Both the position numbers and the translations under genes were made by a program. DNA of 64,000 nt from positions 868,001 to 932,000 of the forward strand of contig NZ_AP017295.1 of NCBI RefSeq assembly GCF_001548375.1, written 5' to 3'. The number at the start of each line of letters is the position of its first letter. The stretch's first letter is position 1. The notes under the pieces were generated by a model. The model did not search any database, was not told the DNA's origin, and saw only the letters and a list, made by a program, of their open reading frames with translations. The DNA comes from Nostoc sp. NIES-3756. GTDB lineage: Bacteria > Cyanobacteriota > Cyanobacteriia > Cyanobacteriales > Nostocaceae. Of the stretch, positions 4,051 to 18,565 are shown piece by piece.

Positions 4051-4532
4051 AATATTAGGCTGGTGTTCTACTGAACTTTACCTTGTCTTCGATTTTACGA
4101 GTAAATAGATGTGGTTGTCACATGAAATCTTAAAAATCTAAACTCCTTATACTTATAGCTAGGAAGCTCTAGATTTACCGCATTACAATCATACTTAACA
4201 AAAAATAAACAACATCAGGGTCAACACTTAACGCCTTGATTTTTCTTTAAATTATGCCATCTAGAACCCTGTCCGCCTACTGCCTTGCTATTATTGAATG
4301 TTTTAACGCCTTTGTTAACCTATAAGACTCGTTGCTGCTTCCAGGGATCTTCCTGGTAAATCATAGCCAGTACTCTTTCTACCTACAAGCACAACTTCAT
4401 AAGTATCATTACTCATTCATTACAGTGATTTCCAAGTATTTTATCAGCGATCGCTATCCTAACCACCCCCAAAAAACATTACCCCTCTCCGCCGCCGGAA
4501 AGGGGTTAAAGATGAGATACTCAGCACTCAGC
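4051..4532. other. Non-coding spacer with one GC-rich palindrome
   Basis: No convincing gene was found. Near 4473-4507 there is a GC-rich imperfect palindrome (cccctctccgcc...ggaaaggggtta) of the kind repeated near 13.8 kb. A short plus-strand frame here overlaps the end of ndhJ and is not credible. Confidence 0.5.
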
Positions 4533-13322: not shown

Positions 13323-13364
13323 CCCCCTTCCCTACGAGGGAAGGGGGTTAGGGGGTTAGGTCTC
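13323..13364. repeat. GC-rich palindrome (REP-like) with ttaggggg tail
   Basis: The palindrome cccccttccctacgaggg plus aaggggg at 13323-13347 is followed by gttagggggttagg. Very similar units are at 13800-13912 and 41281-41385. These look like dispersed extragenic palindromes. Confidence 0.75.
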
Positions 13365-13775
13365 TTCCAAACAAACTTGAGAAATCAACATCAAAACCTG
13401 ATCAAGTTTGTGTATTACTTCTTCATTTTTAATTCTCAGCAAACGTAATCCTCTTGCTAACAAAACTTTGTCACGTTCTGCATCATATTCAACTTGTTGT
13501 TCATGAATTTTTCCATCTATTTCTATCACTAATTTAGCGGTGTGACAGTAAAAATCTACAATAAAACCATCAATAATTTGCTGACGACGAAAGTGTAACC
13601 CATGCAAACGATTAGTACGAAGATATTGCCAAAGTATTTTTTCTTCTGGTGTCATTTGGCGACGAAGTTCTTTGGCAATCTGTATTTTATCTGGGTTTAT
13701 TGTTTGTCCTGTGACTATGTTATGAGTTTTATCGCCTCTACGTAGCAATTTGTGCGGCGGTGTTGGATTATTCAT
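13356..13775 (-). CDS. DUF559 / Vsr-like endonuclease domain protein
   Basis: A 139-residue protein of the DUF559 family, which has the PD-(D/E)XK-like fold of very-short-patch repair endonucleases. Visible elements are RRQMTPEEKILWQYLR near residue 35, FRRQQIIDGFIVDFYC near 62, LVIEIDGKIHEQ near 83 and the RGLRLLRIKNEEV end. The Asp of IVDFYC and the Glu and Asp of EIDG are the likely metal ligands. Such proteins are often carried on mobile DNA. It is bracketed by GC-rich palindromes and precedes the DUF262-HEPN pair. Its biological substrate is unknown. Confidence 0.88.
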   Translation of the reverse strand: MNNPTPPHKLLRRGDKTHNIVTGQTINPDKIQIAKELRRQMTPEEKILWQYLRTNRLHGLHFRRQQIIDGFIVDFYCHTAKLVIEIDGKIHEQQVEYDAERDKVLLARGLRLLRIKNEEVIHKLDQVLMLISQVCLEET

Positions 13776-14031: not shown

Positions 14032-14709
14032 TCATTTCAAATAATCCTGCTTAGATAAATAAATTTCTATATTCTCTAATATTTCCTTTAAATAACAAAT
14101 AACTCTTTTTTGAATCTCCAATAATTCGTCCGCAGTAGCATTTCTACCAACTTCCTCAAATGATTTAAAACCATGTGCCAAATCATTTCTATTAGTTTTA
14201 ACTCTTAATAAATCGCTACCATTTTTAGTTTTTTTAGCATTTGTTTTACATGAAAAACCATACATTTCAGATGTATCTCGTATTCTTCTTGCATCGAGAT
14301 TCCCTGAAAATAATTTTTCTTTATCAAAAGTTCTGTATATTATATCACATGAAATATTATTGATACTCTTTAACAGAACATCAGTGGAGTTGTTCTCCTT
14401 GAAATTTTTAATAATGATTTTTTTAATTTTATCTGTGACATCATCGAAAGAAACACTTTTACTTTGAAAATCATCAAAAATTGTTATAATGGCATTACGC
14501 ATCGTTGATTCAACAAGATTGTAGAGTAACAAAAATCCTGTTGCCTTAAGAGTCTTTTCTAAATTATTATTTATTGATTTAGTCTTGGGGTTTTTAGCAT
14601 TACCCATGCTTAATTTAATTGAACCTTGTTCTAAATTTTTCAAAAACAGAAAATATCTACTAACTTCTTGAGCGCGTTCATCAAAATCTTTAAATAAGGT
14701 ACTTTTCAT
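14032..14709 (-). CDS. HEPN-domain ribonuclease-like protein (MAE_28990/RiboL-PSP-HEPN type)
   Basis: The 225-residue, lysine- and asparagine-rich helical protein has the HEPN signature near its end: R174-N-D-L-A-H179, the Rx4-6H motif that forms the RNase site in HEPN toxins such as those of defence systems. The first half (about 10-75) is a helical bundle with FLLLYNLVESTMRNAI, as in the MAE_28990-type HEPN group often found beside DUF262 genes. The start ATG shares one base with the stop of the upstream DUF262 gene (TAATG), so translation is coupled. The gene is strikingly AT-rich compared with acnB next door, suggesting transfer. Confidence 0.8.
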   Translation of the reverse strand: MKSTLFKDFDERAQEVSRYFLFLKNLEQGSIKLSMGNAKNPKTKSINNNLEKTLKATGFLLLYNLVESTMRNAIITIFDDFQSKSVSFDDVTDKIKKIIIKNFKENNSTDVLLKSINNISCDIIYRTFDKEKLFSGNLDARRIRDTSEMYGFSCKTNAKKTKNGSDLLRVKTNRNDLAHGFKSFEEVGRNATADELLEIQKRVICYLKEILENIEIYLSKQDYLK

Positions 14710-15803
14710 TAATTCCCCAAAAGCTGATCACGAACATAATGAATACGATTAGTGACTTTATTTTGAGAATTATACCCATCAGATATAGTATAACTTTTAA
14801 ATTCTTGACTGTCTAAAAACTCAGTTGATTTTGGGGTTAGATTTGGATTCTCTCTTAATGCTAGAGCGACACCTACACAAATGGATTCAAATTTAATCCT
14901 AGTAGTTGGTTCATATTGATTCTTTGTTTTTCGGTAAATATGTAAAGCGTTAGGAAAGTATTTTTTTATAAATTCTAAAACTGCATAAAATTCACTCTTC
15001 ATTACATCAATATTTAGTGACTTAGATTGATTTTCTTGGTCTAAATAATTGTTTAAAAACTTATGCACTTTTCTGTCAGAATCAGAATAACTTTGATAAT
15101 TATTTAAAAATGCAAAAAAACGTAAGACATATTCTTGTGGATCTCTTTTATTGATTTCAGTTTCAGTAAAAGAACATAAATCCAGAAATTGTTTATATTT
15201 TGATAATTCCTCAATTAGATCGAGAAACTTACCTGGTTTACCTCCTCGGCGTTTCTCCATTTCATTTAATTCAACACTACCACTATTAATTCTTTCAAAG
15301 ACATCTCTTCTGATTTCTTCATTTGCTTCTTTTGTTAAGATAATCATTTTAATAGTAGTCCTCTTAAAACGTCTTTGGCGTGGTAGTGGTAAATCTTCAA
15401 AAGTAAACCCATTCAGAGCTTTCAATTTTTCAAGATTTTGTAATTTAAGTTGATTTTCAATAAACCTAGTTAAAGTACGAATACGTTGTGTACCATCTAT
15501 AATTTCTAAACGTGCTAAATCTTCTGAACCTGATATATCAGCAACAAAAATATAAGGTATTGGTAAACCTAAAATCAAAGATTCAATAAATTTTGATTGT
15601 CTATCGTCATCCCAAGACATTTCTCGTTGATAGTCTGGAATAAATAATTCATTTTCATCTTCCTCTCTTCCCTCTAAATACTTTTGAATAATTACTTCTA
15701 TGGGATATTCTAAAGTATTGTAGTCAACCCGTTTTGTTTTGTCACGAATTTCTATTTCAGCATTTTCTTTCTGTTCATCTGTAATTTCTAATTGATTTAC
15801 CAT
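14709..15803 (-). CDS. DUF262 domain protein (GmrS/ParB-like NTPase domain), partner of HEPN gene
   Basis: The 364-residue protein has the DUF262 core: FIPDYQREMSW at residues 54-64, SLILGLPIPYIFV near 75 and DGTQRIRTL at 103-111. These correspond to the IPxYQR and DGQQR motifs of the ParB/sulfiredoxin-fold domain seen in GmrSD and BrxU, where it binds and hydrolyses nucleotides. The HNH nuclease half (DUF1524) is absent. Nuclease activity may instead be supplied by the HEPN protein encoded next, whose start overlaps this stop by one base. It is AT-rich. DNA modification sensing or toxin-antitoxin function is inference. Confidence 0.85.
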   Translation of the reverse strand: MVNQLEITDEQKENAEIEIRDKTKRVDYNTLEYPIEVIIQKYLEGREEDENELFIPDYQREMSWDDDRQSKFIESLILGLPIPYIFVADISGSEDLARLEIIDGTQRIRTLTRFIENQLKLQNLEKLKALNGFTFEDLPLPRQRRFKRTTIKMIILTKEANEEIRRDVFERINSGSVELNEMEKRRGGKPGKFLDLIEELSKYKQFLDLCSFTETEINKRDPQEYVLRFFAFLNNYQSYSDSDRKVHKFLNNYLDQENQSKSLNIDVMKSEFYAVLEFIKKYFPNALHIYRKTKNQYEPTTRIKFESICVGVALALRENPNLTPKSTEFLDSQEFKSYTISDGYNSQNKVTNRIHYVRDQLLGN

Positions 15804-15934: not shown

Positions 15935-18565
15935 CTATATCAACAAAGCTTGCTCCTCCTTAGAAATCACTCGTCCTTCATCCTCAAAACCAGCTATTTG
16001 ATCAAAGTTCAAGTACCGATACAAATTCTCAGCAAAAGGATGAATCTTATTCGCCACAATATCTAGATATTCCTGGACTGTGGGGATGCGTCCTAACAAA
16101 GCACAAACGGCGGCTAATTCGGCGGAACCTAAATACACTCGCGCACCTTTACCCATGCGGTTGTTGAAGTTGCGGGTGGAGGTAGAAAATACAGTTGTGC
16201 CATCGGCAACTCGCGCCTGATTTCCCATACATAAGCTGCATCCTGGCATTTCTGTTCTTGCGCCAGCCGCACCAAACACACTATACACACCTTCTTCTTT
16301 TAATTGGTGTTCATCCATGCGCGTAGGTGGCGCTATCCACAGGCGTGTTTTGACTTCACCTGCACCTTCTAAAACTTTCGCTGTTGCCCGATAATGACCA
16401 ATATTTGTCATACAAGAACCCAAGAATACTTCTTGTACTGGGTCATTAGCAACTTCCGATAATAATTTAACATTATCGGGGTCATTGGGAGCAGCCACAA
16501 TTGGTTCTTTGATTTCGTTTAAATCAATTTCAATTATTGCTGCATACTCCGCATCTGCATCGCCTTCTAATAATACGGGGTTGGCTAACCATGCTTCCAT
16601 TTGGGCGATACGGCGGAGGAGGGTACGGGAGTCTTGATATCCGCGTGCAATCAAATTCTTAAGTAGGGCGACGTTGGAACGCAGATATTCGGCGACTGTC
16701 TCCACACTCAGCTTAATGGTGGAACCTGCACAGGAACGTTCGGCGGTTGCGTCGGTAAGTTCAAAGGCTTGTTCAACTTTCAAGTCTGGTAAGCCTTCAA
16801 TTTCCATAATGCGCCCTGAGAAGATGTTTTTCTTGTTCTCCTTCTCTACTGTCAGCAAACCTTGTTGAATGGCGACGTAAGGAATGGCGTTAACAATATC
16901 GCGCAGGGTAATTCCTGGTTGCAATTCTCCTTTGAATCTCACCAATACTGATTCTGGCATATCCAAGGGCATAACACCCAACGCCCCAGCGAAGGCTACT
17001 AACCCGGAACCTGCGGGGAAGGAAATACCCAAGGGGAAGCGGGTATGGGAGTCGCCGCCAGTTCCTACGGTGTCGGGTAATAGCATCCGGTTGAGCCAAG
17101 AGTGAATGATACCATCACCAGGACGCAGTGCTACACCACCACGGGAGGAGAAGAAGTCGGGGAGTTCGTGGTGGGTTTTGATGTCTACGGGTTTGGGATA
17201 AGCGGCGGTGTGACAGAAGCTTTGCATTACTAAGTCAGCACTGAAACCCAAACAAGCGAGTTCTTTGAGTTCGTCGCGGGTCATGGGGCCGGTGGTATCC
17301 TGGGAACCAACGGTAGTCATGATGGGTTCGCAGGATGTACCGGGACGCACACCGGGTAAACCGCAGGCTTTACCCACCATTTTCTGGGCGAGGGTGTAGC
17401 CTTTGCCTGTGTCTGTTGGTTGTTGGGGACGGATGAAGACGGTGCTGGGCGGTAAATCTAGGGCTTGGCGAGTTTTGTCGGTGAGGGTACGCCCGATAAG
17501 TAGGGGGATACGTCCACCAGCGCGGACTTCATCGAGGATGGTGTCGGGTTTGAGGGTGAAGGTGGAAATTAGTTCGCCGGCTTCGTTGGTAATTCGTCCT
17601 TTGTAGGGATGGATGGTAATTACCATGCCGGTTTCTAGTTTGGTGACATCGCACTGTATAGGCAAAGCACCGGCATCTTCGGCTGTGTTGAAAAAGATGG
17701 GAGCGATCGCACCACCTAAAATATACCCCCCAGCGCGTTTGTTGGGAACATAAGGTATATCTTCCCCTGTATGCCACAATACTGAGTTAATCGCTGACTT
17801 CCGCGAGGAACCAGTACCGACAACATCCCCAACGTAAGCCACTGGATGTCCTTTCTTCTTCAACTCGGCAATAGTTTCTAAACTACCCGGTTGCCTTGAC
17901 TCTAACATCGCTAAAGCGTGTAGGGGAATATCTGGGCGGGTGGTGGCGTGGGTGGCGGGGGATAAATCATCGGTGTTGGTTTCCCCAGGCACTTTAAAGA
18001 CGGTGACGTTAATATATTCTGGTAGCTGGGGGCGAGATGTAAACCATTCAGCCTCAGCCCAAGAGTCAATTACCCGTTTGGCGTAGGGGTTGGTTTTCGA
18101 TAGTTCCAAAATATCGTGGAAAGCATCATACACCAACAAGGTTTTGCTGAGGGCGGCGGCGGCGTAAGCAGCTATCGGTTCCTTACCTTCTCCACCCATT
18201 ACCAAGGGTGTTTCGGAGGAGTCAGAAACAGATACGGTAGGGAATTGCAGCAACTCAATTAAGGACTGGACGTTATAACCGCCTACCATTGTCCCTAGCA
18301 ACTGCACCGCCTGTATAGGTGAAATGATGGGACTTTTCACCTGCTTCTTGGCAATGGCGGTGAGAAACCCAGCTTTGACATAAGCCGCAGGATCAACACC
18401 AGGGGATACGCGATCGCGCAATAAATGTAATAATGTATCTTCTTCCCCTTTGGGTGGATTCTTCAGCAATTCACATAATTCTGAAGTTTGTTTTGCATCC
18501 AACGGTAAGGGAGGAATCCCTAGTGCTGCTCTTTCGGCAACGTGTTGACGGTATGATTCCAGCAT
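15935..18565 (-). CDS. acnB: Aconitate hydratase B
   Basis: AcnB isomerises citrate to isocitrate, feeding 2-oxoglutarate supply for nitrogen assimilation in cyanobacteria with an open TCA cycle. The 876-residue length fits the AcnB type with its N-terminal HEAT-like domain. Seen are the swivel domain near residue 160-330 ([21 protein letters not shown]), [22 protein letters not shown] near 428, [14 protein letters not shown] near 510 and the iron-sulfur cysteines C in FLGSCMTN and [12 protein letters not shown]. It is a single gene, divergent from the ferredoxin gene, with a terminator behind it. Confidence 0.97.

Follow-up and report, generated by a model that had tools for sequence, protein, structure and literature searches.

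A DUF262-HEPN gene pair of Nostoc sp. NIES-3756: a probable defence module from a methylase-less branch of a family that mostly carries a C5 DNA methylase

The 64,000-nucleotide stretch of the Nostoc sp. NIES-3756 chromosome analysed here (NZ_AP017295.1, positions 868,001 to 932,000; hereafter the window) contains two overlapping minus-strand genes that encode a DUF262 protein and a HEPN protein of the MAE_28990 family. The features of the locus, in window positions, are:

15803-14709, minus strand: DUF262 (GmrSD_N) gene, open reading frame of 364 amino acids
14709-14032, minus strand: HEPN_MAE_28990 gene, predicted RNase, open reading frame of 225 amino acids
14707..14711, minus strand: TAATG stop/start overlap of the DUF262 and HEPN genes, with the single shared base 14709 (sequence)
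14173..14190, minus strand: HEPN catalytic motif R174-NDLA-H179 (R-x4-H), read from the sequence and conserved
15483..15497, minus strand: DUF262 D103-G-T-Q-R107, the DGxQR nucleotide-pocket motif (conservation; motif role from the accessible part of PMC10952713)
15624..15632, minus strand: DUF262 Y58-Q59-R60, invariant in 104 of 104 pairs
15935..18565, minus strand: acnB (aconitase B), outside the system; its 3' side is a variable site
13356..13775, minus strand: DUF559 gene (PF04480, E 1e-36), outside the system, at the far edge of the variable site

Both open reading frames were re-read on the minus strand, and the coordinates, motif numbering, and TAATG overlap given in a preliminary description of the locus were all correct. 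The overlap suggests that translation of DUF262 and HEPN is coupled. As that description held, both genes are much richer in AT than acnB: HEPN and DUF262 have GC contents of 0.270 and 0.290, respectively, vs 0.493 in acnB, and the pair are the two lowest among the 37 open reading frames of at least 200 amino acids in the window (median 0.425). The REP palindromes described next to the genes are short inverted repeats with 9-nucleotide arms at 13325, 13832, and 13869, and are not listed by a repeat finder set to at least 12 nucleotides. The window contains no tRNA, and no Rfam family scores above its cut-off around the DUF262-HEPN site.

DUF262 matches PF03235 (GmrSD_N) with 102.8 bits (cut-off 33.2; E 3.5e-29) and consists of a ParB-like NTPase domain (residues ~22-176) followed by a helical C-terminal domain (~181-364), with no HNH domain. 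The preliminary description gave the HNH half as missing, and Pfam finds no match to PF07510 (GmrSD_C, DUF1524/HNH) up to E 1 in the DUF262, HEPN, or DUF559 proteins. HEPN matches PF18737 (HEPN_MAE_28990) with 158.3 bits (cut-off 26.8; E 4e-46) and, weakly, PF18735 (RiboL-PSP HEPN; 33.6 bits, cut-off 28.4), and is predicted to be an RNase. The preliminary description had proposed a comparison of predicted structures. The fold of DUF262 resembles BrxU minus its end, SspE, and ParB; the match to BrxU stops at residue 421, before the end of the BrxU chain. For HEPN, the first Foldseek comparison gave no convincing match, and HEPN toxins were seen to rank high only at a second look at the structure matches. 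PDB sequence searches with both proteins returned nothing useful. Motif conservation was counted over 104 intact pairs with distinct DUF262. In HEPN, H179 and E67 are kept in all 104 and R174 in 103, with lysine in L070; in DUF262, D103-G104-x-Q106-R107 and Y58-Q59-R60 are kept in every pair.

The pairing itself was surveyed across genomes. HEPN is present in 44 of 198 related genomes, at 47 places, 46 of which adjoin DUF262 or a piece of it. The 47th (L102) lies at the end of a contig and is apparently the continuation of L081. The 46 fetched HEPN places outside the window form our relatives set. A scan of a genome collection with a DUF262 alignment found at least 590 stretches and at least 302 relatives. 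Among the best 80 of these, which come from many phyla and are 44-93% identical, 78 have HEPN next door; the other two are contig ends, 128 and 274 bases past DUF262. More distant DUF262 proteins occur without HEPN_MAE_28990, as DUF262 is matched in 135 of the 198 genomes and HEPN in 44; among plasmid records, 238 match DUF262 and 17 match HEPN. Among at least 101 intact pairs, counted from the twelve commonest values of the spacing between the genes, 46 have -4, 18 have -1, and 16 have +2. Over the 104 intact pairs, protein distances of DUF262 correlate with those of HEPN at r 0.891, the highest value among 1000 permutations being 0.197. The near-universal adjacency, co-divergence, and invariant catalytic positions indicate that DUF262 and HEPN form one unit in this family. 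Homologues do not occur chiefly alone among housekeeping genes.

The wider family has a third component. A cytosine methyltransferase is annotated beside the pair on Klebsiella, Phaeobacter, Roseomonas, and Rhodococcus plasmids, and a Rhizobium plasmid also carries Vsr. Using annotated methylases as BLAST queries, we located a dedicated methylase family in 9 of 11 fetched plasmid pairs, the exceptions being E. coli L120 and Sinorhizobium L146. Of the 46 loci of the relatives set, 13 have the dedicated methylase adjoining the pair, in 10 cases tail to tail with HEPN. A search of the 198 genomes yielded 13 copies with at least 56% identity, all next to a pair; the remaining matches at E 1e-40 are 38-41% identical, except for a 90-residue fragment with a stop in G099 (77%). 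In the best-80 set, the 30 non-cyanobacterial loci comprise 24 with the dedicated methylase, three with another C5 methylase, one with none, and two contig ends. The 50 cyanobacterial loci comprise 23 with it, 20 without, five undecidable, and two with partial matches. Vsr lies near the pair in nine of the former and in none of the latter. Methylase and DUF262 distances are correlated over 66 loci (r 0.854; best permutation 0.277), and clustering of 50 neighbourhoods revealed no gene family besides the methylase and acnB in a constant place by the pair. Because most of the wider family carries the dedicated C5 methylase, the ancestral cue of the DUF262-HEPN family was most likely methylation status. 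DUF262, HEPN, and the dedicated methylase family also occur together in two phages, the P2-like P2_4B2 and Mcat25 of Moraxella, and a pattern search of IMG/VR viral contigs found no HEPN relative. In P2_4B2 (L281, 2337-3041), the methylase is annotated with 234 amino acids and matches over 227 residues; the usual length is 340-350.

The window pair belongs to a branch that lacks this methylase. No dedicated C5 methylase lies within 5 kb of the pair, and none of the four C5-methylase (PF00145) matches in the genome of the window belongs to the dedicated family at E 1e-40. In a maximum-likelihood tree built quickly from 115 DUF262 proteins (midpoint root; support from the Shimodaira-Hasegawa-like approximate likelihood ratio test, SH-aLRT, with no bootstrap), the window protein falls within a clade of 40 cyanobacterial sequences with a support of 99. 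Of these, 33 are without methylase, six are undecidable, and one (L194) retains a remnant (48% over 18%) in the usual tail-to-tail place. The clade is nested in a larger group of 71 cyanobacterial sequences; of the 31 outside the clade, 30 have the methylase and L079 has a 78%-identical remnant. The remaining 44 rows comprise 36 with methylase, two with another C5 methylase, three without (L098, L120, L205), two undecidable, and one partial. Among partial matches, only those of L079 and L194 look like remnants of the dedicated family; L096, L146, and L200 have 25-31% matches. We infer that the methylase was lost, most simply once, in the common ancestor of the 40-row clade. Since the L194 remnant lies inside this clade, more than one loss, or exchange, is possible.

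Purifying selection continues to act on the two genes in the methylase-less clade, with ratios of nonsynonymous to synonymous change (dN/dS) of 0.09-0.28 in 12 of 14 gene comparisons. L064 and L065 are too close to judge: synonymous changes between them are nearly absent, and the ratio is 0.67 in DUF262 and undefined in HEPN. Comparison of 28 orphan and 29 methylase-bearing cyanobacterial DUF262 proteins identified 162 positions conserved at 85% or more in both groups, six of which differ between them (I102, F232, T301, K304, S307, S345). With none in HEPN, these differences hint at a switch in DUF262 upon loss of the methylase, but 6 of 162 DUF262 vs 0 of 77 HEPN conserved positions is not a significant difference (p 0.18). 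Among loci away from contig edges, both genes are full-length in 65 of 66 with the dedicated methylase vs 32 of 45 without. Read as greater decay without methylase, the corresponding 13 of 45 vs 1 of 66 gives p 2e-5, a value inflated because many loci were chosen for their DUF262 rank; restricted to the relatives set, the counts are 9 of 30 vs 0 of 13 (p 0.04). This comparison leaves out L069, L081, L090, and L102.

Related systems have been described before. PD-T4-2 protects E. coli against T4, both in its native strain and in K-12, according to the accessible part of Vassallo 2022 (PMC9519451), and its components are DUF262 and HEPN proteins, the listed HEPN model being PF18735 (accessible part of PMC10952713). 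The window DUF262 matches the PADLOC model PD-T4-2_A (PDLC04027) with 122 bits (E 6.4e-36) over positions 50-356 of 363; PD-T4-2_B gave no match in the window pair, the presence of such a model in PADLOC being unconfirmed. Like PD-T4-2, the window pair combines DUF262 and HEPN within one system. It differs in that its HEPN belongs to PF18737 and only weakly matches PF18735, and in the link of its wider family to a C5 methylase. Table 1 of a 2013 survey (Anantharaman, PMC3710099) lists MAE_28990 HEPN in an operon with ParB nuclease and DNA methylase genes, the same HEPN family in the same gene company; in its accessible text, the entry appears without counts, tree, Vsr link, or methylase-less branch, and the ParB protein is taken as a nuclease. 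Defence by PD-T4-2 and the 2013 listing are already known, and our survey adds the methylase-less branch. GmrSD and BrxU share with the window protein a DUF262 domain followed by a helical domain and the DGxQR motif, whereas the window protein lacks the HNH (DUF1524) half and has a separate HEPN gene instead. The window DUF262 scores highest, at 200 bits, against PADLOC NsnA, above PD-T4-2_A. NsnB, however, is an ATPase-type protein whose model matches in 14 of 14 control genomes and also matches AAA_21 ATPase; the genome of the window has four NsnB matches, none of them in the window. The anticodon nucleases PrrC and RloC are HEPN RNases, and PrrC is tied to a restriction-modification system (accessible part of PMC3710099); unlike the window pair, they carry an ABC NTPase in one chain rather than DUF262, and the type I system of PrrC has its own DNase. 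Our literature search, conducted largely without subscription papers and bioRxiv, found no mechanism paper on the pair and none on the methylase-less branch. On E. coli plasmid pRHB15-C18_2 (L140, 3399-4994), a related DUF262 is paired with a RiboL-PSP-type HEPN (PF18735) next to PemIK; this DUF262 scores 143 bits against PD-T4-2_A, above the 122 bits of the window protein, and NsnA again scores higher.

A defence role of the family is well supported by its plasmid, phage, and hotspot contexts, the kinship with PD-T4-2_A, and the tight pairing. For the window pair, the likeliest function is that of a defence module with a sensor and an effector, similar to PD-T4-2. We consider it probable that the pair is a two-gene anti-phage module of the abortive type, in which DUF262 is the sensor and HEPN the RNA-cutting effector, and that its branch has lost an ancestral C5 methylase. 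In relatives of DUF262, the recognition of modified DNA is linked to the use of NTP and to a nuclease (accessible part of PMC10952713). The window DUF262 would be an NTP-using, ParB-like DNA sensor without a nuclease half of its own. Upon meeting a phage-associated DNA state, it would change conformation and, presumably through direct contact, release or activate the co-translated HEPN, which would then cut RNA and stop the infected cell. The preliminary description proposed DNA sensing by DUF262 and RNA cleavage by HEPN, which fits the predicted folds, with modified or damaged DNA as one option for the cue. Its defence reading is well supported; the DUF559 gene that it noted next to the pair is not part of the system, and it missed the methylase link of the wider family. 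Most of the wider family has as its third gene a C5 cytosine methylase of its own, accompanied in some loci by Vsr, and the ancestral cue would have been methylation status. In the window branch the methylase would have been lost, most simply once, before spread through cyanobacteria, and another cue may now be read.

A bolder version goes further, and we advance it tentatively, judging it somewhat more apt to be wrong than right: DUF262, HEPN, and the C5 methylase would constitute a restriction-modification-type system with RNA cleavage as output, and in the window branch the sensor would have been rewired to a new cue after loss of the methylase, leaving a freed RNase that is stable, selected, and mobile. 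If this is true, DNA methylation status can gate an RNase without any DNase in the system, which would widen the concept of restriction-modification; ordinary restriction logic predicts that the freed RNase half is lethal to its host. The methylase-less clade would provide a natural experiment on how the sensor discriminates self from foreign. Because only six of the 162 conserved DUF262 positions differ between the groups, comparisons of orphan and methylase-bearing proteins are tractable. The survey also gives a wide comparative frame to the DUF262-HEPN class, so far represented by one tested E. coli system and a line in a table.

The pair might instead still fire on an unmethylated site, with another host methylase of the same specificity protecting the chromosome in trans. 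We regard this as unlikely, although it survives best among the alternatives. The wider family does have a dedicated methylase, and the genome of the window has its four PF00145 matches. Against this stand the absence of the dedicated family from those four matches and the low identity (22-27%) of two of them, L151 and L152, to the three pair methylases compared. The L151-type enzyme does not discriminate as a candidate protector: it is present in 177 of the 198 relatives and absent at E 1e-60 from at least three that keep the pair, namely G042 and G076 (full pair each) and G155 (full pair and methylase remnant). G042 does carry another C5 methylase, 41% identical to the dedicated one.

A classical toxin-antitoxin arrangement, in which DUF262 neutralises HEPN and its loss frees the toxin, would agree with the gene overlap, low GC content, and mobile contexts, and HEPN toxins are known from HEPN-MNT pairs, structures of which are among the HEPN matches. 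Yet 7 of 121 loci away from contig edges (L066, L086, L087, L096, L099, L100, L219) retain, at the sequence level, HEPN at full length and with its motif, next to a DUF262 that is cut short or frameshifted; five loci have the reverse, a full DUF262 with a broken HEPN, and in four both are broken. The toxin-antitoxin sense of the toxin pair proposed earlier is not favoured because HEPN stays intact in those seven loci. In addition, DUF262 relatives are NTPase sensors rather than antitoxins in the accessible part of PMC10952713, and we consider this arrangement improbable. In L066, L086, L099, and L100, DUF262 is only ~172-187 residues long beside an intact HEPN. These short forms end near the low-confidence interdomain linker of the model (173-178) and may be either products of decay or a shorter version of the system.

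We hold it about equally doubtful that DUF262 is itself a DNA-cutting enzyme, with HEPN an accessory or backup RNase. ParB-like domains have been classed with DNases (accessible part of PMC3710099), and the linked methylase and Vsr resemble a restriction system; however, the cutting part of GmrSD and BrxU is DUF1524/HNH (accessible part of PMC10952713), and both the Pfam search for GmrSD_C and the BrxU match, which ends short of that chain's end, indicate that the window protein lacks it. That the pair serves aconitase function as a host gene pair is very improbable and already contradicted by the survey: it lies downstream of acnB on the same strand, starting 132-1047 bases after it, in 9 of 47 loci including the window, but acnB is present in 117 of 119 genomes and HEPN in 44 of 198, other defence genes occupy the same place, and the close kin L066, L068, and L070 sit elsewhere.

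The region behind acnB reads as a small defence hotspot. We fetched it in 13 relatives without the pair there and scanned ten chosen proteins by Pfam and PADLOC, three of which had no match at the limits used. The cargo includes an AIPR/AbiU protein (G007), XisH-XisI with a NucS-like gene (G010, with look-alikes in G012), a full GmrSD with XisHI-like genes (G011), and an AAA_21 ATPase with DUF4276 (G004); G005 has, by eye, apparently ordinary phycobilisome genes. The DUF559 gene closes the stretch without the pair in four of the 13 relatives (L268-L271), 2.2-2.7 kb past acnB, and is therefore a feature of the site rather than of the system. Behind acnB, the window repeats no more than 13 nucleotides of the acnB 3' end in direct orientation. 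Among 22 loci tested, a copied acnB stretch lies behind the gene only in G011 (L273, 216 nucleotides) and G004 (L276, 39 nucleotides). The L273 copy of the near-3' end (~4092-4352; 93.5% identical) is located between the XisHI-type cargo and the full GmrSD gene, as if cargo had arrived by recombination at acnB.

Variants of the two proteins include HEPN fused to an XisH domain in P0011 and P0043 (359 amino acids; HEPN 77% and 70% identical to that of the window), the XisH domain of P0011 being C-terminal by Pfam. XisH-XisI-like genes also adjoin the pair in L061. P0321 is a fusion of an N-terminal TIR domain with a DUF262 71% identical to that of the window, suggesting that a DUF262 sensor may drive a different effector; this protein and the HEPN protein P0058 probably share one contig.
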